Notes: generated by a model not told the origin, from the sequence alone. Numbered from the stretch's first letter, positions 1,492 to 40,291 are shown. The stretch is DNA of 64,000 nucleotides from Sphingomonas horti (GCF_009753715.1 NZ_WQMS01000016.1:1-64000), one strand, 5' to 3'. Made by a program: numbers and translations.

Positions 1492-2466
1492 CTACTCTAC
1501 CGGATCGTGCTGAAAGCTGGCGCGATATTGCGCGGGCGAAATTCCGAGGCGATCGACAAAAACGATGCGCATGCGGTCCGCCGTGCCAAAGCCGCAATCG
1601 TAAGCAACACTCTTCAATGGCAGCCGCGTGCCTTCCAGCAGCATGCGGGCCGTGTCAACGCGCGCGCGCTCGACGAACTCGTGCGGCGTGATTCCTGTCT
1701 CCCGGACGAAATGCCGCGCGAGATTGCGAGCGCTCATGCCGACTTGCTCTGCGAGAGACTGGAGCGTGTGGCGCTCGCCCACATTTTCCATGACAAAGGT
1801 CTGGAGCCGCGCGATCGGCGACACCGGATCGGCGGGGGCCGAGAGGTACGGACTGAACTGGGACTGCCCGCCCTGACGCTGGGCGACGACCACAAGACGC
1901 TTCGCAACCGCAACGGCGACGTCCGGCCCGTGATGCTCCCTGATCAGCGCGAGGGCCAGGTCGATGCCGGCGGTCACCCCGGCGGAGGTGATCAGAGGTC
2001 CGTCGCGGACATATATCAGGTCAGGCTCGACCCGTGCCGCGGGAAAGCGAGCGGCGAGCTTCTGCGCGATCTGCCAATGCGTGGTCACCCGGCGCCCGTC
2101 GAGCAGACCGGCGTGTCCGAGAGCGAACGCCCCTGTGCAGATCGAGCCATGAACGGTCGATGTTGTCGCGATGGCCTGCAGCCAGTCCGTCATTGAGGAA
2201 TCCGGCTGCGCGTAAGGCAGCTCCGGTCCACCCGCCACCAAAACCAGATCGAACGGCTGATGCGCCTCGTCAAAGGCGAGATCAGCCACGAGCTGCATCT
2301 TGTTCGATGCCCGAAGCGGCGCGCGGGTTCGGGCGACCAGCAGGGTCTCGTAACGATCCTCTTCGGCGATGAAGGCATTGGCTTCGGCGAACACATCAAT
2401 CGGCCCGGCCACGTCCAGGGCCTGAACGCCGTCGTGAATAACCAGGGCTGCCTTGCGAGCCGGCAT
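1492..2466 (-). CDS. GlxA-family transcriptional regulator (DJ-1/PfpI domain + AraC HTH)
   Basis: A 324-aa two-domain regulator. Residues about 1-185 form a DJ-1/PfpI-like glutamine-amidotransferase fold, with 'DLVLVAGG' and the nucleophile-elbow motif 'GSICTGAFALGHAGLL' followed by 'VTTHW'. Residues about 225-315 are an AraC-type double helix-turn-helix, with 'SLAEQVGMSARNLARHFVRE' and 'SVAYDCGFGTADRMRIVF'. Members of this family usually sense a small molecule and control an adjacent operon. The gene is divergent from the HD/cupin/AhpD operon across a 207-base intergenic region, which makes that operon its likely target (inference). An AAGGA site precedes the ATG. Confidence 0.93.
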   Translation of the reverse strand: MPARKAALVIHDGVQALDVAGPIDVFAEANAFIAEEDRYETLLVARTRAPLRASNKMQLVADLAFDEAHQPFDLVLVAGGPELPYAQPDSSMTDWLQAIATTSTVHGSICTGAFALGHAGLLDGRRVTTHWQIAQKLAARFPAARVEPDLIYVRDGPLITSAGVTAGIDLALALIREHHGPDVAVAVAKRLVVVAQRQGGQSQFSPYLSAPADPVSPIARLQTFVMENVGERHTLQSLAEQVGMSARNLARHFVRETGITPHEFVERARVDTARMLLEGTRLPLKSVAYDCGFGTADRMRIVFVDRLGISPAQYRASFQHDPVE

Positions 2467-2673
2467 AGAGTCCTTGCTGCGCCTTCAGTGGCGGAAAACC
2501 ACGTGCGCTTGTCCTGATTTGCCGCCCCGGAGTCGTTGAGTCGAGATCAGCCAAACCCCAATACAGGTGCAGCGGAAGCGAATTCAGACGCGGCCGTGAC
2601 GTTAGATTGCAAACTGGAACGGCTTTGCGTGCTGGTTCGCGCCACGAGAGGCCGTGCCGATGAGGAGCTTGCG

Positions 2674-3315
2674 ATGATCCATTCGATTGCCGGCATCCGG
2701 ATTCCCGACAGCGTGATCGCCCGCGCCGCCACCGAGCTCGTCCGGGACACCGAGGACGACCTTCTCTACAACCACAGCCGCCGCGTATTTTTCTGGGGTG
2801 CACTCACCGGCGAGCGGCGATCCCTGGAGTACGATGCCGAGCTTCTCTATCTCGGCGCCATGTTCCACGACATGGGCCTGACCAAGGCCTATTCCAGCGC
2901 GGACCTGCGCTTCGAGGTCGACGGCGCGAATGCCGCTCGTGACTTCATGAAGAGCTATGGGGTTCCGGAACGCGACGTGGAGGACGTGTGGACCGCGATC
3001 GCGCTCCACACCACGCCCGGCATCCCTGAGCATATGCGTCCGACCATCGCCATGCTGACGGCGGGCGTTGAGATGGACGTGCTCGGCATCGGCTATGACG
3101 CCTTCACCGCGGAGCAGCGCGACCATGTCTGCGCGCACCACCCGCGCGAAGCGAACTTCAAAGAAAACATCATCGACCACTTCGCGGCGGGGATTGGCCA
3201 CAAGCCGCTGACGACCTTCGGCAACGTCAAGGCAGACGTGTTGGCGCTCAAGGACATGGCCTATGTTCGGCAGAATTTCTGCGCAATCATCCTCGGCTCG
3301 GCCTGGCCCCACTGA
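2674..3315 (+). CDS. HD-domain hydrolase, cyanamide-hydratase-like, paralogue 1
   Basis: A 213-aa protein with the metal-binding HD signature: His34 in 'NHSRRVFFWGA', His65-Asp66 in 'MFHDMGLT' and His112 in 'ALHTTPGIPEH'. The overall layout matches the HD family related to fungal cyanamide hydratase. The ATG at 2674 was preferred over longer forms because GAGGAG lies six bases before it, and the paralogues at 4287 and 4964 begin equivalently (IAG[IV]xxPDS). It is the first gene of the plus-strand operon divergent from the GlxA regulator. The substrate is unknown; hydration of a nitrile-like C-N group is only an inference from the family. Confidence 0.85.
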   Translation: MIHSIAGIRIPDSVIARAATELVRDTEDDLLYNHSRRVFFWGALTGERRSLEYDAELLYLGAMFHDMGLTKAYSSADLRFEVDGANAARDFMKSYGVPERDVEDVWTAIALHTTPGIPEHMRPTIAMLTAGVEMDVLGIGYDAFTAEQRDHVCAHHPREANFKENIIDHFAAGIGHKPLTTFGNVKADVLALKDMAYVRQNFCAIILGSAWPH

Positions 3316-3373
3316 TCGGCGCGAGGCCGACGATGCCCGCCCAACCAAAAGAGCCTCCACAAGGAGATTAGCA

Positions 3374-3781
3374 ATGAAATTCCGCACAGTTCTTGCCGCT
3401 GCAGTGGTCGTCGCCGCAGCGCCCGCGCTGGCGCACGGCGAAGGTGCCGAAACGGTTATTCCGCGGTTCGCGCAGGCGATCCCGACCATTCCCGGCAAGT
3501 CGCTGGTGGCGGTGGAGGTCGAATATGCGCCGGGAGCTGCGTCGCCGGCGCACACGCACGCAAAGTCGGCCTTCATCTACGCTTACGTGATTTCCGGCGA
3601 GATCGAGTCGAAAGTGAATGACGGCGCGGCGCGAATCTACAGGGCCGGCGAGAGCTGGTCGGAACCGCCGGGCGCCGTCCACTCGATCAGCCGCAATGCG
3701 AGCAAGACTGAGCCGGCGAAGCTGCTCGCGGTGTTCGTCGTCGACTCCGACGACAAAGCACTCACCACCCCCGTCAAATAG
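3374..3781 (+). CDS. Secreted cupin-domain protein
   Basis: A 135-aa protein with a clear signal peptide (MKFRTVLAAAVVVAAAPALA, cleavage near residue 20) followed by one small cupin barrel. Cupin motif 1 is seen as 'SPAHTHAKSAFIYAYVISG' and motif 2 as 'GESWSEPPGAVHSISRN', giving the usual His/His and His metal ligands. AAGGAG lies just before the ATG. It sits between the first HD gene and the AhpD-like gene in the same orientation, so a periplasmic role in the same pathway is likely. The reaction is unknown. Confidence 0.88.
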   Translation: MKFRTVLAAAVVVAAAPALAHGEGAETVIPRFAQAIPTIPGKSLVAVEVEYAPGAASPAHTHAKSAFIYAYVISGEIESKVNDGAARIYRAGESWSEPPGAVHSISRNASKTEPAKLLAVFVVDSDDKALTTPVK

Positions 3782-3800
3782 CATCGAAGGAACCAGGACA

Positions 3801-4256
3801 ATGACTCAGCGGCTCGACTACAACCAGGTTGCTCCGGCGGGAGCGAAAGCGCTCGGCGGCGTCTATGGCTATGTCGTTCAGAGCGGCTTGCCGGCCGAAC
3901 TGGTGAACCTTGTTTATCTGCGGGTCTCCCAGATCAACAACTGCGCCTACTGCCTCGACATGCACACCCGCGACCTCATCAAGATGGGTGTCGCAGTCGA
4001 GAAGCTTGCGCTGCTGCAGGCCTGGGCGGAAGGGGACAGCCTCTTCAGCGAGACCGAGCGCGCCGCGCTTGCCTGGTCAGAATGCGTGACGCGCGTCGCC
4101 GACACCGGCGTCCCGGACAGCGCGTATGAAGCCGCACGCAAGGTCTTCGATGAGAAGCAGCTGGTCGACCTCACGATCGCGATCAGCCTGATGAACAGCT
4201 ACAACCGCATGGCGATCAGCTTCCGGAATACGCCCCAGGCGGTCCGCGAGCGCTGA
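3801..4256 (+). CDS. AhpD-like / carboxymuconolactone decarboxylase family protein
   Basis: The 151-aa product belongs to the alkylhydroperoxidase D-like family. The core is 'LVYLRVSQINNCAYCLDMHT', whose C-x-x-C plus following His (CAYCLDMH) is the redox and proton-relay motif of AhpD. The start ATG at 3801 follows a GAAGGAACCAGGA stretch. It lies 19 bases after the cupin gene and 30 before the second HD gene, so it is cotranscribed with them. Proteins of this type reduce peroxides or act in detoxification; the specific role here is inferred from context. Confidence 0.9.
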   Translation: MTQRLDYNQVAPAGAKALGGVYGYVVQSGLPAELVNLVYLRVSQINNCAYCLDMHTRDLIKMGVAVEKLALLQAWAEGDSLFSETERAALAWSECVTRVADTGVPDSAYEAARKVFDEKQLVDLTIAISLMNSYNRMAISFRNTPQAVRER

Positions 4257-4286
4257 GCGCAAGCGCTGCACCTGAAAGGACAGGCC

Positions 4287-4967
4287 ATGACCCTGGACCA
4301 GATCGCCGGCGTGAAGATTCCTGACAGCAAGATCGCGCAGGAAGTGACGCAATTCATTAGGGACACCGAGAGCGACTTGCTGTTCGATCACTCCCGCCGC
4401 GTCTATTTCTGGGGTGCGTTGGCTGGGCAGCGCAAGGGGCTCAGGTTTGATCCAGAGCTCTTCTACACCGCTGCCATGTTCCACGACGTCGGTCTCACTT
4501 CCCGCTTCCGTGAAAGCCATGTGCGCTTCGAAGTCGATGGCGCCAATGCCGCGCGCGATTTCCTGCGGAGCCATGGCATTTCGGAAGCGGATATCGAGAA
4601 AGTCTGGCTCGCGATCGCGCTGCACACCACGCCCGGGATTTCAGAACATCTGCACCCGCTGATCGCGCTCACTGCAGAGGGGGTGATGATGGATCTGGTG
4701 GGCCTTGGCTACGACGCTTTCACCGATACGCAGCGCAAGGCCATTGAGGCCGCTTATCCTCATCCACCGGGGTTTGCCGAGCACGTGCTTCAGGCCTTGT
4801 ACGACGGTCTCGAACACCGGCCCGAGACAACCCAGGGCACCGGCCTTGCCGACGTTGTGGCTGAGAAGAATCCGCACTTCCACCGGCGGGACTTCTGCGG
4901 CCTGATGCGAAACGGCCGTTGGGCCGCCGGCGTCACGCGCGTTCATGCCGGAGGGATCGGGGAATGA
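4287..4967 (+). CDS. HD-domain hydrolase, cyanamide-hydratase-like, paralogue 2
   Basis: A 226-aa paralogue of the protein at 2674. It keeps all HD ligands: His in 'FDHSRRVYFWGAL', His-Asp in 'MFHDVGLTSRF' and His in 'ALHTTPGISEHL'. It also keeps the family block 'RFEVDGANAARDFL'. The C-terminus is extended by about 13 residues compared with the first copy (ending HAGGIGE), which lets its stop overlap the start of the third copy. A GAAAGGA site precedes the ATG. Divergence between copies is substantial, so they are not a recent duplication. Confidence 0.87.
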   Translation: MTLDQIAGVKIPDSKIAQEVTQFIRDTESDLLFDHSRRVYFWGALAGQRKGLRFDPELFYTAAMFHDVGLTSRFRESHVRFEVDGANAARDFLRSHGISEADIEKVWLAIALHTTPGISEHLHPLIALTAEGVMMDLVGLGYDAFTDTQRKAIEAAYPHPPGFAEHVLQALYDGLEHRPETTQGTGLADVVAEKNPHFHRRDFCGLMRNGRWAAGVTRVHAGGIGE

Positions 4968-5614
4968 CGCACGCCCTGACACGGATCGCCGGCGTGAGCC
5001 TTCCCGATAGCCGGCTTGCGCGCGAAGTGACCCAGTTCATTCGTGACACGGAAAGCGACCTGCTGTTCCATCACTCGGTGAGGGTCTATTTCTGGGGCGC
5101 GCTGAACGGGCATCGACTCGGACTGAGCTTCGACCCGGAACTGCTTTACGCGGCCGCGATGTTCCACGACCTTGGGCTCACCGAACGCTATCGGGACAGC
5201 CAGCTGCGTTTCGAGGTGAACGGCGCGAATGCAGCGCGCGATTTCCTGCGGACCCACGGCATTCCGGAGAGGGATATCCAGACTGTATGGAATGCCGTCG
5301 CGCTGCATACGACGCCAGGCATACCGGAGTTCATGGCGCCGGAGATCGCGTTGGTGCAGGCCGGCGCCGGCATGGACGTGGCCGGCCGCGGCTATGACGA
5401 ATTCACCGACGCCCAGCGCGACGCGGTTCTCGCCGCAGCTCCCAGAGAAGCCGATTTCAAGCACGCCATCATCGATGCCTTTTATCAGGGCATGAAACAC
5501 CGCCCCGGCAGCACGTTCGGGACCTTCAACGACGATGTCCTGGCCTTCAAGGATCCGGATTTCCGCCGGATCGACATGTGCAGCGTCATCCTCACCTCGG
5601 CCTGGAAGACCTGA
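4964..5614 (+). CDS. HD-domain hydrolase, cyanamide-hydratase-like, paralogue 3
   Basis: A 216-aa third paralogue whose ATG overlaps the stop of the second (ATGA at 4964-4967). The ligands are conserved: 'FHHSVRVYFWGAL' for the first His, 'MFHDLGLTERY' for the His-Asp pair and 'ALHTTPGIPEFM' for the third His. The 'RFEVNGANAARDFL' block is present with Asp replaced by Asn relative to the other two. Translational coupling suggests that equal amounts of the second and third proteins are made, perhaps for a hetero-oligomer (inference). Confidence 0.87.
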   Translation: MTHALTRIAGVSLPDSRLAREVTQFIRDTESDLLFHHSVRVYFWGALNGHRLGLSFDPELLYAAAMFHDLGLTERYRDSQLRFEVNGANAARDFLRTHGIPERDIQTVWNAVALHTTPGIPEFMAPEIALVQAGAGMDVAGRGYDEFTDAQRDAVLAAAPREADFKHAIIDAFYQGMKHRPGSTFGTFNDDVLAFKDPDFRRIDMCSVILTSAWKT

Positions 5615-5725
5615 CGCCGGTCACTGCCCGACGCGCGAACGCTTCCAGATTCCCATCAGGCCGCGGAGACGATCCGCTTGGCCAGGAGGCACCCTGCCTC
5701 GCAGCCCTATTTCAGTAAGGATTGA

Positions 5726-6448
5726 ATGATGATCAGGCGTACTTTTCTCGTGACCGGCGCCAGCAAGGGCATCGGTCGCGCAGTTTCAACCATGCTCGCG
5801 GACGCCGGACACAACGTGGTCGGCCTCGCCCGCGGACCTGACGCAGGATTCCCCGGCACCCTGGTTCCTATGGACCTAAGCGACACCCAGGTAGCAAAGG
5901 ACGGCTTGGAAGAGCTCGCCCACCGCTTCTCGTTCGATGGGTTGGTCAACAATGTGGGCCTGGTTAAGCTGGCGCCATTCGGAGAGATCGAACTGGGCGA
6001 TGTCGACGAGCTCTTTCGGATGAATGTGCACTCGGCCATTTTGGCCGGCCAAGCGGTCCTGCCAACGTTGCGCAAGAAGCGCTGGGGCCGCATCGTCAAC
6101 GTGACCAGCCTGGTGGTCACCGGTATCCCCCTGCGCGGCGCCTACGCCGCCGCGAAAGCCGCACTTAATAGTCTTACCCGCACCTGGGCCATGGAGTTGG
6201 CCGACACAGGAATCACGGTCAACGCCGTTGCACCCGGCCCGGTCGAGACGGAACTGTTCCGCCGAAACACGCCCGTGGGGAGCGAAGCCGAGGCAAGGTT
6301 CCTCTCCGCAATCCCGATGCACCGCCTGGGCAGACCGGACGAGATCGCGGCGGCGATCGCGTTTCTGCTGTCGGATGGCGCCGGGTTCATCACCGGTCAG
6401 ACCCTGTTCGTCGACGGCGGAGCGTCGATCGGAAGACAGGCGCTTTAG
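5726..6448 (+). CDS. Short-chain dehydrogenase/reductase
   Basis: A 240-aa classical SDR. The N-terminal cofactor motif is '[12 protein letters not shown]' (TGxxxGxG), the structural motif 'VNNVG' replaces the usual NNAG, and the catalytic Tyr-x(3)-Lys is in '[14 protein letters not shown]' with Ser upstream in 'VNVTSLV'. The C-terminus has the family's '[13 protein letters not shown]'. TAAGGA precedes the ATG. It lies 111 bases after the third HD gene in the same orientation and could be the last gene of the operon or a separate unit. Substrate not predictable. Confidence 0.88.
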
Positions 6449-6872: not shown

Positions 6873-8537
<1,665 letters not shown>

Positions 8538-8852
8538 TCAGGCGGCCTGCTTGAGCGGCACGACGTTGTCGATCACGCCGAGGATATCGCTTTCTTTCAT
8601 GATGAGCAGGTCCTCGCCGTCGATCTTGACCTCGGTGCCCGACCATTTGCCGAACAGGATGCGGTCGCCGGCCTTGACCGACAGCTCGACCAGCTTGCCA
8701 TTGTCGTCGCGGGCGCCGGGCCCGACCGCAAGGACCTCACCTTCCTGTGGCTTTTCCTTGGCTGTGTCGGGAATAATGATGCCGCCCGAGGTCTTCTCCT
8801 CGGCTACGATGCGGCGGACGACCACACGGTCGTGCAAGGGGCGGAAATGCAT
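8538..8852 (-). CDS. groES: Co-chaperonin GroES
   Basis: 104-aa heptameric lid of the chaperonin. It begins [15 protein letters not shown] and has the mobile-loop region '[18 protein letters not shown]', the conserved '[10 protein letters not shown]' and the C-terminal '[14 protein letters not shown]'. The start at 8852 is fixed by GGAGG six bases upstream on the minus strand. It is slightly longer than the typical 95-97 aa because of the C-terminal NVVPLKQAA tail. It is the first gene of the groESL operon downstream of a CIRCE-like operator. Confidence 0.96.
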
Positions 8853-8965
8853 GCATAACCTCCAGTTGCAAAACATGATGTGATGTCCCCGTGGTTCAGT
8901 CCGAACGACGGGTTCCGACGACCTAAGAAACCCGCTTTTCCGTTCAAGAGCCGGAACAAAAATTT

Positions 8966-8992
8966 TTGGCGCTGGTTGGCATGGAGTGCTAA
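8966..8992 (-). promoter_or_regulatory. CIRCE-like operator (HrcA site) of groESL
   Basis: Read on the minus strand the site is TTAGCACTC, nine bases, CAGCGCCAA. The left arm matches the CIRCE consensus TTAGCACTC-N9-GAGTGCTAA exactly; the right arm matches 6 of 9 positions and the spacer is exactly nine. It lies about 113 bases upstream of the groES start. HrcA repression is inferred. Confidence 0.75.
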
Positions 8993-9109
8993 ATTTGTCC
9001 GAGCCGGGCACCGTACTCTCTCTTGACGGTCGCCCCACTCGAGGGAAATTTGCACCCCGGTCATGCGGCCGATGAGAAAGGAGCGACGACAAGGAAAGGA
9101 GGACCGACC

Positions 9110-10701: not shown

Positions 10702-11088
10702 CTAGCTGGTCGCTGCCTTGCGGCCGGCGGGGCGGCTTTCGAGGATGGTCTGGATCAGGCTGCGCAGCACGCGCGCCGGGACCGGTTTGCTGATCCGCGG
10801 CACCTCCGCGTAGCGGTCCTGAATCGAGGCGCGGTCATAGCCGGTGGTGAAGGCGAAGGGCACGTCGCGCGCGATCAGCTCGTCGGCGATCGGATAGGCC
10901 CAGATCCCGCCCAGGTTGATGTCGACCAGCGCCGCGTCGATCGGCGTCGACCGGATCGCCGCCACGGCCTCCTCGACCGAGCCGCAGGGCCCGACCACCT
11001 CAAGGCCCAGATCGCCAACTTCCTCGCACATCTCTGCCGCGACCAGGAACTCGTCCTCAACCAGCAGGATGCGTTTGGGCCTTTCCAT
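10702..11088 (-). CDS. Single-domain response regulator
   Basis: 128 aa, a receiver domain only. It has 'RILLVEDEFLVAAEMCEE' with the acidic pair, 'ALVDINLGG' holding the phospho-acceptor Asp, 'PFAFTTGYD' with the conserved Thr, and Lys in 'PRISKPV'. There is no output domain. The start at ATG 11088 lies inside the 3' end of the kinase gene (32-base overlap), so it is cotranslated with the HWE kinase, its likely partner. Such stand-alone receivers commonly serve as phosphate sinks or HWE-kinase outputs in alphaproteobacteria. Confidence 0.9.
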   Translation of the reverse strand: MERPKRILLVEDEFLVAAEMCEEVGDLGLEVVGPCGSVEEAVAAIRSTPIDAALVDINLGGIWAYPIADELIARDVPFAFTTGYDRASIQDRYAEVPRISKPVPARVLRSLIQTILESRPAGRKAATS

Positions 11089-13018
11089 CCGGTTTCTCCC
11101 GTCCGATCGGAATCCGCAGCTCGCAGTGGATGCCGTCCTCTGCGAACCTGAAGTCCGTTTCCGCGCCAAGGTCGTAAGGCAGCGCCTGCTCGATCAGCTT
11201 GCGGCCGAAGCCGCGGCGGTCGCGCTGCGCCGCGCCATCCATCTCGACGCCGCTCTCGGTCCAGCGGATGACCAGCAGCTCGCGCCAGTCGGGCCTGGCC
11301 AGATCCCAGGAGATCGCCAATTGGCCGGAATGGTTGGCGAGCGCGCCATATTTGATCGCGTTGGTCGTCAGCTCGTGCAGCGCCAGCGTCAGCACCTGAA
11401 CCTCGCGCGCGGTCAGCGGCACTTCCGGCCCGGCGACGACGATGCGATCGCTGTCGAGCGGCGCGCCGTGCGCGTCCAGCTCGCCGCGGACGAGGTCGTC
11501 GACCTTCACTTCGTCCGCGCCGCTGGACAGCAGGCTCTGCACCCGGCTCAGCGCGGAAAGCCGGTCGCCGAATTCCTGCCCGAATTGATCCAGGCTGGCG
11601 CTCGACCGCAGCGTCTGCTGCGCGATCCCGCGCACGATCGCAAGCAGGTTGCGCGTGCGGTGCTGCAGCTCCGCAACCAGCGTCTGCTGCAGCTCCTCGT
11701 CGCGCTTGCGGCGGGAGATGTCGTTGAACAGGATCGCGACGCGGTGCTGGTCGGGGTCGCCCGCGCGCATCGCATAGACATCGTACCAGCGTCCATCCAG
11801 CGCCTTCGCCCGCTGCTCGAACCGGGCCGGCTCGCCGGTCAGCGCGACCCGCCCGTAAGTCTCGAACCAATGGTCCTCATGGCCCGGCGCCAGTTCGCGC
11901 ATCCTCTTGCCGACTGCGTCCTTCAGGCCCGTCTGCCGCTCGAACGCCGGATTCACCTCGACGAAGCGATAGTCGCGGCCCCGGCCCGCCTCGTCGAACA
12001 GCATCTCGACGATGCAGAAGCCCTGGTCGATCGACTTGAACAGCCGGCTGTAGCGCTCCTGGCTTTCCCGGAGCGCGGCCTCGGCGCGGGTGGTCGAGGT
12101 GACATCCAGAAAGGTCAGCACGGCGCCGGCGATGAAATTGTCGATGCTGCGATAGGGCAGGATCCGCGCGATGTAATTGCGTTCGCCGTCTGCCGACGTG
12201 ACCGCGCGCTCGCTGGTGCCCAGCGTCTTCAGCACCCGCCGGACGTCGTCCTGCAATTCCGCATAGGCGACGCGGCTCGCGACATGGTCGATCGGCCGGC
12301 CCAGATCGGTCTCGATCAGGTGGAAGATGTCGGTCGCGGCGGGCGTGAAGTTGCGCAGCCGCAGGTCGTTGTCGAGGAAGACGGTCGCGATCTGCGTCGA
12401 TTCGAGCAGGTTCTTCAGGTCCGAGTTGGTGCGCGCCAGCTCGCCGACCCGGTGCGCGAGCTCGCCGTTGACGGTCTGCAGTTCCTCGTTGACCGACTGC
12501 AGCTCCTCCTTGGAGGTCTCGAGCTCCTCGTTGGCGGACTGCAGCTCCTCGTTGATCGACTGATATTCCTCGTTGGAGGATTTCAGCTCCTCGTTGGTGC
12601 TTTCCAGCTCCTCGATCGTGGTCTGCAGCCGCTCCATGGTCAGCCGCAGCTCGGCCTCGATCTGCTGGACATGCTCGTCGCTGACCAGCTTCTGGTCGCC
12701 GCTCCATTCGCCCTCTTCCGGGGTCGGGCCCCCATCCTGGAACAGCACGACGAAGGCGGTCACTTCCCTGTCGTCCCCGATCGGCTCGACGATCAGGTTG
12801 GCGAGCGAAGCGGAGCCGTTCCGGCCCATCGGCACGCGCGCCATCTCGACCCGCTGCCGTTCCTCGGCGGCGCGATGCAGCGCGGACCTGAGGTCCAGCC
12901 GCAGATCGCGATGGACGAGCGCCAGCAGGTTCAGGCTGGCGGCCCCGGCTGCGGGTTCGAGGTAGCGGCCGGTCCGGCCCGAAAAGTGCAGCACGTCATA
13001 TTGCGGGTCGATGACCAC
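11057..13018 (-). CDS. PAS / HWE-type sensor histidine kinase, apparently split from CheBR
   Basis: 653 aa from GTG 13018. The order is a PAS-like segment, a long heptad coiled coil (about residues 110-200, with repeats such as 'ELESTNEELKSSNEEY'), two PAS domains, and a C-terminal HWE/HisKA_2 kinase. The kinase has the H-box 'AELQHRTRNLLAIVRG', the N-box 'LHELTTNAIKYGAL', 'IRWTESG' and the G-box 'RRGFGRKLIEQAL'. The frame stays open upstream to 13108 and reads 'GALTGTISRRAEAVAERYAP', which looks coding but has no good start. In related bacteria the CheB-CheR-PAS-kinase chain is often one polypeptide, so this is probably its C-terminal half, displaced by a -1 frameshift. Confidence 0.88.
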   Translation of the reverse strand: MVIDPQYDVLHFSGRTGRYLEPAAGAASLNLLALVHRDLRLDLRSALHRAAEERQRVEMARVPMGRNGSASLANLIVEPIGDDREVTAFVVLFQDGGPTPEEGEWSGDQKLVSDEHVQQIEAELRLTMERLQTTIEELESTNEELKSSNEEYQSINEELQSANEELETSKEELQSVNEELQTVNGELAHRVGELARTNSDLKNLLESTQIATVFLDNDLRLRNFTPAATDIFHLIETDLGRPIDHVASRVAYAELQDDVRRVLKTLGTSERAVTSADGERNYIARILPYRSIDNFIAGAVLTFLDVTSTTRAEAALRESQERYSRLFKSIDQGFCIVEMLFDEAGRGRDYRFVEVNPAFERQTGLKDAVGKRMRELAPGHEDHWFETYGRVALTGEPARFEQRAKALDGRWYDVYAMRAGDPDQHRVAILFNDISRRKRDEELQQTLVAELQHRTRNLLAIVRGIAQQTLRSSASLDQFGQEFGDRLSALSRVQSLLSSGADEVKVDDLVRGELDAHGAPLDSDRIVVAGPEVPLTAREVQVLTLALHELTTNAIKYGALANHSGQLAISWDLARPDWRELLVIRWTESGVEMDGAAQRDRRGFGRKLIEQALPYDLGAETDFRFAEDGIHCELRIPIGREKPDGKAQTHPAG

Positions 13019-28601: not shown

Positions 28602-29303
28602 ATGGCCCAAATCTCCTTCCTCCTCTTTCCTCAGGTCACGCAGCTCGACCTAACCGGCCCGGCGCAGGTGCTGTCGCGCATGCCAGACGCAAAGATTGCG
28701 CTGGTCGCGAAGACGCTGGAGCCGGTGCCGACCGACGCTGGCTTCGCGCTGTTGCCGACCGCGACCTTCGAGTCCGCCGCCCCGCCGGACATCCTCTGCG
28801 TTCCCGGCGGGTTCGGCGTCACCGGCGCGATGGAGAACGAGGCGACGCTCGCCTGGCTGCGCCGCGCGGCCGAGGGCGCGGCGTGGGTGACCAGCGTCTG
28901 CACCGGCGTGCTGGTGCTGGGCGCGGCCGGGCTGCTCCGCGGCTATCGCGCGACCACGCATTGGGCCAGCCATGAATATCTGGCAGCGTTCGGCGCGATT
29001 CCGGTGAAGGAGCGGGTGGTGTTCGATCGCAACCGCGTCACCGGCGGCGGCGTGACGGCCGGCATCGATTTCGGCCTGGCGCTGGTCGCCGCGATCGAAG
29101 GCGAGGACTATGCGCGCTTCGTGCAGCTCAGCCTGGAGTATGATCCGGCGCCGCCACTCGATTCGGGGTCGCCCGGCAAGGCCGATGCGGCGACGCTGGA
29201 GCGCTATCGCGCGATGGTGGCGAAGTCCGCGTCAGATCGACCGGCGCGCTACCGCGCCGCCGCGGAGCGGCTGAACCGACCACCATCATCATCCCGGCCT
29301 TGA
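28602..29303 (+). CDS. DJ-1/PfpI protein, isonitrile-hydratase-like
   Basis: 233 aa with a single DJ-1/PfpI domain and no HTH. The nucleophile Cys is in 'WVTSVCTGVLVLGAAGLLRG', followed by 'YRATTHWASHEYL' and 'RVTGGGVTAGIDFGLAL'. The pattern is close to isonitrile hydratase (InhA) of Pseudomonas, which converts isonitriles to N-substituted formamides; other family members have unknown substrates. It sits 21 bases after smc, with an ACGGAGGTG site. The last residues (PPSSSRP) are encoded by a REP-like element, so the C-terminus has been re-made by the repeat. Confidence 0.82.
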   Translation: MAQISFLLFPQVTQLDLTGPAQVLSRMPDAKIALVAKTLEPVPTDAGFALLPTATFESAAPPDILCVPGGFGVTGAMENEATLAWLRRAAEGAAWVTSVCTGVLVLGAAGLLRGYRATTHWASHEYLAAFGAIPVKERVVFDRNRVTGGGVTAGIDFGLALVAAIEGEDYARFVQLSLEYDPAPPLDSGSPGKADAATLERYRAMVAKSASDRPARYRAAAERLNRPPSSSRP

Positions 29304-38150: not shown

Positions 38151-40177
<2,027 letters not shown>

Positions 40178-40291
40178 AATGGTCTTCCTCTACCCTGCTA
40201 TCGGACCGGACGGAAGGGGCTCGCGCCATCTGGCGGCGACGCTTCAGCGCGGCGATGGCTGCGCCGGGAACCGGATTTGCGGCCAGCGGCT

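Follow-up and report, generated by a model that had tools for sequence, protein, structure and literature searches.

A 64,000-nucleotide stretch of Sphingomonas horti DNA (GCF_009753715.1, NZ_WQMS01000016.1:1-64000; the window hereafter), which is the start of a contig in a complete-looking genome of 3.35 Mb, carries at positions 1492-6448 an operon encoding three HD-domain proteins (HD1 to HD3), a cupin, an AhpD-like protein and a short-chain dehydrogenase (SDR), next to a divergent gene for a GlxA-type regulator. The operon type is real, conserved, modular and apparently undescribed, and a literature search found no paper describing an HD/GlxA/cupin/CMD operon. Our proposal, to which we give about an even chance, is that this is a GlxA-induced, modular and horizontally assembled detoxification operon whose HD proteins act on a nitrile- or cyanamide-like compound. 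Gene content, HD subfamilies, recurrence elsewhere, operator, fold and metal-site residues were all computed. Parts of the gene set are found again in numerous unrelated bacteria, frequently on plasmids, and the operon is therefore likely to give protection from a small, toxic nitrogen compound.

Organization of the operon

The glxA-type gene (1492..2466, minus strand) is followed on the plus strand by the genes for HD1 (2674..3315), a small cupin (3374..3781), an AhpD/CMD-family protein (3801..4256), HD2 (4287..4967), HD3 (4964..5614) and the SDR (5726..6448), and these seven genes were further checked with Pfam and NCBIfam. The intergenic gaps from HD1 to the SDR are, in order, 58, 19, 30, -4 and 111 bp, so a single transcription unit is likely, with the SDR gene as its least certain member. 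A scan for sigma-70-type promoters gave no signal exceeding chance. All seven genes had been named, in this order, by the original prediction, which also described two of the HD enzymes as translationally coupled, the cupin as exported and the AhpD protein as bearing a CxxC motif; indeed, the HD2 stop codon overlaps the HD3 start in an ATGA, an N-terminal signal sequence was recognized by eye in the cupin (PF07883, 58 bits), and the CxxCxxxH motif of the AhpD/CMD-family protein (PF02627, 60 bits) reads CAYCLDMH. The latter protein passes the AhpD core model TIGR00778 (55.7 bits, cut-off 27.8) and fails the full model TIGR00777 (23.5 against 191.95 bits), and on these profile scores it is AhpD-like rather than AhpD proper. 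The SDR is of the NF005753 type (315.1 bits, cut-off 310).

Fold and metal site of the HD proteins

HD1, HD2 and HD3 are mutually 58-61% identical, exceed the Pfam HD cut-off (PF01966; 34.3, 35.8 and 36.8 bits, cut-off 22) and have the cyanamide hydratase family TIGR03401 as their best NCBIfam match. In a search of the HD-family profile against solved structures, yeast Ddi2 came first (E 4e-8). The AlphaFold2 model of HD3 (pLDDT 94.4) retrieved Ddi2 in all of its top 15 PDB matches in Foldseek (TM 0.71-0.79), with the next-best HD fold at TM 0.46. The relationship to cyanamide hydratases that had been suggested beforehand is thus upheld by the predicted fold and, as described below, by the aligned metal-site residues.

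In Ddi2 the metal site consists of His55, His88 and Asp89, and Thr157, which replaces the usual second Asp, is predicted to position the substrate or to tune the metal (PMC8177086). Across the 149 sequences of our HD tree, in which HD1, HD2 and HD3 fall into three old subfamilies, A, B and C, respectively, residues H37, R40, R82, E84 and D138 do not vary, and each of H68, D69 and H115 is lacking from a single sequence. Where HD proteins usually have their second Asp (135, A135 in HD3), Ala or Val is found and never Asp or Thr: Val throughout subfamilies A and D, Ala in C, and either of the two, mostly Ala, in B. In the alignment to Ddi2, H115 of HD3 corresponds to His137, conserved as H115 in all but one sequence, and A135 to Thr157; the Asp of the canonical 'ADRL' of E. 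coli YedJ, aligned independently, also falls on A135, and the E. coli YfbR profile alignment was too weak to be used. The Ddi2 PDB chains differ at two positions, which fits a chain-numbering offset of 8 and the mutants H137N and T157V; the Ddi2 residues matched to H115 and A135 are given on this numbering. Given Ala or Val at position 135 together with the conserved H...HD, the metal site is, as judged from the alignments, of the Ddi2 kind, that is, H...HD without a second Asp.

The Pfam HD domain, which scores above its cut-off, could also speak for other enzymes of the HD superfamily, namely nucleotide phosphohydrolases and di-iron oxygenases, but both of these classes use the second Asp of H...HD...D (PMC8177086), and the proteins studied here have Ala or Val in its place. 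HD di-iron oxygenases (MIOX, PhnZ), with H...HD...H...H...D, were rejected because the final Asp is absent and the HD3 model matches PhnZ at a TM of only 0.27, and HD phosphohydrolases (YfbR, YpgQ), with H...HD...D, because the final Asp position is Ala or Val. The model has low fold likeness to PhnZ, YfbR and YpgQ as a group (TM 0.27-0.41), and we consider membership of either class very unlikely. The assignment to single-metal hydratases or hydrolases with a Ddi2 fold is, from alignments and model, well supported.

The three proteins share with yeast Ddi2/Ddi3 (6DK9, 6DKA, 6DKC, 6DKD) the full-length fold, the H...HD site without a second Asp, His137 and an FE..G motif; they differ in being bacterial and only about 16% identical, in having Val or Ala for Thr157, and in belonging to multi-gene operons and to several paralogous subfamilies. 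A direct reading of this likeness would be that they hydrate cyanamide itself to urea and protect the cell from cyanamide of agricultural or plant origin (vetch, canavanine-derived). No relative other than Ddi2 has a solved structure at this level, the proteins have kept His137 of Ddi2 and, like it, have no second Asp at the metal site, many hosts of the family are rhizobia and soil bacteria, and cyanamide is a natural product of legumes (PMC4650597). However, Thr157 is replaced by Val or Ala in all subfamilies, and TIGR03401, albeit the best family match, is scored at only 50.0, 56.6 and 53.4 bits by HD1, HD2 and HD3 against a cut-off of 109.85 that none of the 399 genomes sampled across the phylum exceeds; a single substrate would not need three different enzymes. 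HD1 to HD3 are therefore not filed as cyanamide hydratases, the Thr157 position being different and the TIGR03401 score far below the cut-off. Moreover, searches of the genome found no urease alpha gene and no urea carboxylase above the cut-off. The lack of both argues against growth on cyanamide, making a nitrogen supply from it via urea unlikely in this genome; the catabolic option that had been raised is not supported for cyanamide as a nitrogen source. Overall, cyanamide itself seems an unlikely substrate.

GlxA regulator and putative operator

The regulator has a PF01965 domain (89 bits) followed by an AraC-type helix-turn-helix domain (HTH_18, 76 bits), i.e. the DJ-1/AraC architecture according to Pfam. 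It shares this architecture with FtrA, GbdR and CdhR, scores below the NCBIfam equivalog cut-offs of both FtrA and GbdR, and is most closely related to the GlxA protein of a Microvirga locus (L007; loci of other genomes are designated by L numbers), with 77% identity. All 65 GlxA proteins that are linked to HD genes have Cys110 of the DJ-1 domain, and 64 of them have Asp18; these two residues may make GlxA a sensor. Several characterised regulators of the GlxA class (GbdR, CdhR) sense amine compounds (PMC5806209).

Of 25 divergent GlxA/subfamily-A promoters, 17 have a direct repeat, TGKC-N17-TGKC, with a 21-bp period on the strand that faces the HD gene; shuffled sequences gave at most 4, the opposite strand 1 of 25 and other spacings at most 3. 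The period fits AraC-type regulators, whose binding sites are direct repeats with a spacing of about 21 bp. In the window, the putative operator lies at 2489..2518 on the plus strand (TGGCGGAAAACCACGTGCGCTTGTCCTGAT) and contains TGGCGG (2489-2494) and TGTCCT (2510-2515), 21 bp apart; it scores 13.9 with a matrix built without the window, 300 shuffles reaching at most 7.4. A pattern derived from the window together with its closest relatives has a single occurrence genome-wide with up to 3 mismatches allowed, and the closest relatives keep the repeat ahead of the HD gene even where GlxA is encoded upstream in the same orientation (L083, L011, L144). The control of the operon by GlxA that had been proposed is supported by this putative operator, which is conserved and unique in the genome. 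Among subfamily D promoters, the 21-bp repeat was found in only 1 of 19; a TGKC-N16-TGKC spacing occurs in 7 of these 19 GlxA/HD promoters and may be a variant operator.

Subfamilies and proposed assembly of the operon

In the HD tree, whose bootstrap is not fully settled, HD1 groups in subfamily A with GlxA-linked HD proteins and is nearest to a Bradyrhizobium homolog (L097, 86%), HD2 in subfamily B is nearest to Sphingomonas sp. JC676 (L031, 79%), and HD3 lies in subfamily C with HD proteins linked to MocR, cupin and AhpD, nearest to Bradyrhizobium and Phyllobacterium. L031_4528, left out of subfamily B by the automated census because of the rooting, is placed in B by the tree with 100/100 support. 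In stretches with full flanks, GlxA was counted near subfamily A in 17 cases against 1 far from it, MocR near subfamily C in 16 against 1, and the cupin near subfamily C in 15 against 2. Some members of subfamily B have N-terminal signal sequences, recognized by eye (L007, L010, L039, L041, L048, L057, L144), and from these sequences would be exported HD enzymes; the sphingomonad members, HD2 among them, are without one.

The original prediction had described the three genes as tandem paralogues, and their adjacency and 58-61% identity could suggest redundant, functionally meaningless copies made by recent local tandem duplication. However, the three belong to three separate clades, each has closer relatives in other loci (79-86%) than in its neighbours in the window, and the same subfamilies meet again elsewhere. 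Recent duplication was rejected on these grounds and is hardly credible.

The surrounding genes have similarly divided affinities. The GlxA protein and HD1 resemble those of Microvirga and Bradyrhizobium, whereas the cupin, the AhpD-like protein, HD2 and HD3 resemble those of Sphingomonas L031 and Rhizobiales (74-87%), where the regulator is of the MocR type; the cupin is 74-79% identical to cupins of MocR-linked loci and the AhpD-like protein 87% identical to its L031 homolog. The L031 locus (MocR, cupin, AhpD, HD-B, HD-C) has the cupin-AhpD-HD-HD order in common with the window at 74-87% identity, but it has a MocR regulator, and no GlxA, HD-A or SDR gene was seen in its stretch. The Microvirga terrae plasmid locus L007 (GlxA, HD-A, SDR, cupin, NADP oxidoreductase, HD-B, HD-C) shares with the window the divergent GlxA, the leading HD-A, all three subfamilies and the operator; it differs in lacking AhpD, in having HD-C on the other side of GlxA and in an HD-B with a signal sequence. 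The SDR is 58-66% identical to SDRs adjoining HD genes in L057, L051, L010, L147, L152 and L049, the closest being from Burkholderiales (66%). On these similarities, the simplest account would be that a cupin-AhpD-HD-HD unit was brought under a GlxA/HD-A promoter; the operon would then join two separately circulating modules, GlxA/HD-A and cupin-AhpD-HD-B-HD-C, the latter normally under a MocR-type regulator.

Distribution and recurrence

At E <= 1e-30, an HD gene of this kind is present in 10 of 301 genomes of the host's bacterial family and in none of the 5 other genomes of the genus examined. Across the phylum, this HD family occurs in 21 of the 399 sampled genomes; in addition, 143 plasmid records have a match (Rhizobium, Pantoea, Burkholderiaceae, Streptomyces and Staphylococcus among others) and at least 558 places in GTDB genomes were confirmed. 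The family, which had been called rare, is indeed so within the host's own family, but on these counts it is better described as mobile and patchily distributed.

Subfamilies A, B and C occur together in Microvirga (L007) and Caballeronia (L057), and two of the three in L005, L006/L033 (near-identical), L010, L031, L039, L041, L048 and L144. Chance would hardly account for the subfamilies meeting in about ten loci elsewhere, given a family that about 5% of genomes possess and that most of these carry at one or two places. HD genes also co-occur with cupin, AhpD and SDR genes in other loci, a point on which the original prediction had staked its case.

Neighbouring families were named by eye; those that recur are cupin, AhpD, SDR, NADP oxidoreductase, MocR and GlxA, with LysR and nitroreductase in some loci, and beyond this recurring set no conserved neighbour betrays a substrate. 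A LysR-type regulator lies near some subfamily C genes (L036, L039, L041, L042, L043, L046, L051, L056), several of which have a nitroreductase-like gene; this vicinity is a third regulatory context. On Sinorhizobium meliloti pSymA (L154 4376-6812), MocR-cupin-AhpD lies next to genes for a ccoNOQP-type cytochrome oxidase and has no HD gene, which makes the HD gene an optional member of that unit. Among distant relatives, a fourth HD gene of the S. horti genome (33%, contig 12, L004 1462-3416) adjoins genes for an exported cupin and an SDR-like protein and so repeats this gene combination in the genome, and a 31% relative in Sinorhizobium medicae has cupin and SDR genes nearby. In a single case, on a conjugative Sphingopyxis plasmid (L186 3256-5654), the gene for a 34% HD relative comes immediately after one for an amidase, an order that a nitrile-to-amide-to-acid route would need.

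Genomic surroundings

A second groEL/groES pair (6873-9092, minus strand) adjoins the operon. This genome has two full-length groEL matches and each of five other genomes of the genus has one, the copy in the window being the odd one; owing to this extra copy, the left end of the window is probably accessory DNA, and its GC content does not stand out. A stand-alone DJ-1/PfpI gene (28602-29303, plus strand), to which only PF01965 could be assigned, had been mentioned with the operon as a protein of the isonitrile-hydratase type, but it lies 22 kb away, behind an SMC-type gene, and is unlinked. The window also contains a gene for an HWE-type PAS histidine kinase followed by one for a response-regulator-like receiver protein (10702-13018, minus strand), and a TPP riboswitch (40077-40184, minus strand, 65.1 bits).

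Proposed function

As regards metal, catalysis, substrate class, induction and the roles of the accompanying proteins, we infer the following scheme. GlxA would bind the 21-bp direct repeat in the promoter that it shares with HD1, and a ligand reaching GlxA, perhaps via the DJ-1 domain and its invariant Cys, would switch on HD1-cupin-AhpD-HD2-HD3-SDR. HD1 to HD3 would act as single-metal hydratases or hydrolases with the Ddi2 fold and the H...HD site. Because the residues beside the metal site differ among the three subfamilies, the most likely activity would be the hydration of several related small nitrogen compounds that have a C-N multiple bond and resemble nitriles or cyanamides, the alternative being action on successive products. 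The remaining proteins, namely the exported cupin, the thiol protein resembling AhpD, and the SDR, could handle this insult in the periplasm and in its oxidative and carbonyl aspects.

Several points weigh against this proposal. The HD proteins fall well short of TIGR03401, and the equivalent of Thr157 in Ddi2 is never Thr in the family; no nitrilase, cyanase, urease or allophanate genes were recognized among the conserved neighbours, and none of the HD members found in the searches has a known activity. Furthermore, the accompanying oxidoreductases equally suit electrophile or carbonyl stress. An operon serving electrophile or oxidative (carbonyl, quinone, peroxide) stress, with HD proteins hydrolysing a non-nitrile adduct or metabolite, would agree with the recurring AhpD, cupin, SDR and NADP-dependent oxidoreductase genes and with the nitroreductase or catalase found in places. 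Such enzymes are generic, however, the amine compounds sensed by GbdR and CdhR point elsewhere for this regulator class, and small C-N substrates are the ones to be expected of a Ddi2 fold; this account seems possible, if rather doubtful.

For detoxification of a nitrile- or cyanamide-like compound, the substrates guessed at in the original prediction (nitriles, cyanamides or isonitriles) are plausible but unproven. A bolder form, in which three Ddi2-fold subfamilies would jointly, as a heteromer or in successive steps, destroy a natural C-N compound (nitrile, isonitrile or substituted cyanamide) through an undescribed, plasmid-spread pathway split between cytoplasm and periplasm, is an unlikely one.

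In the literature, 'cyanamide hydratase' is almost always fungal, and the HD family studied here, widespread in soil and plant-associated bacteria, is annotated merely as 'HD domain-containing protein'. If the proposal is true, a bacterial branch would be added to Ddi2, the only known HD hydratase, and, with a regulator and an operator at hand, its substrate could be tested with a GlxA-promoter reporter.

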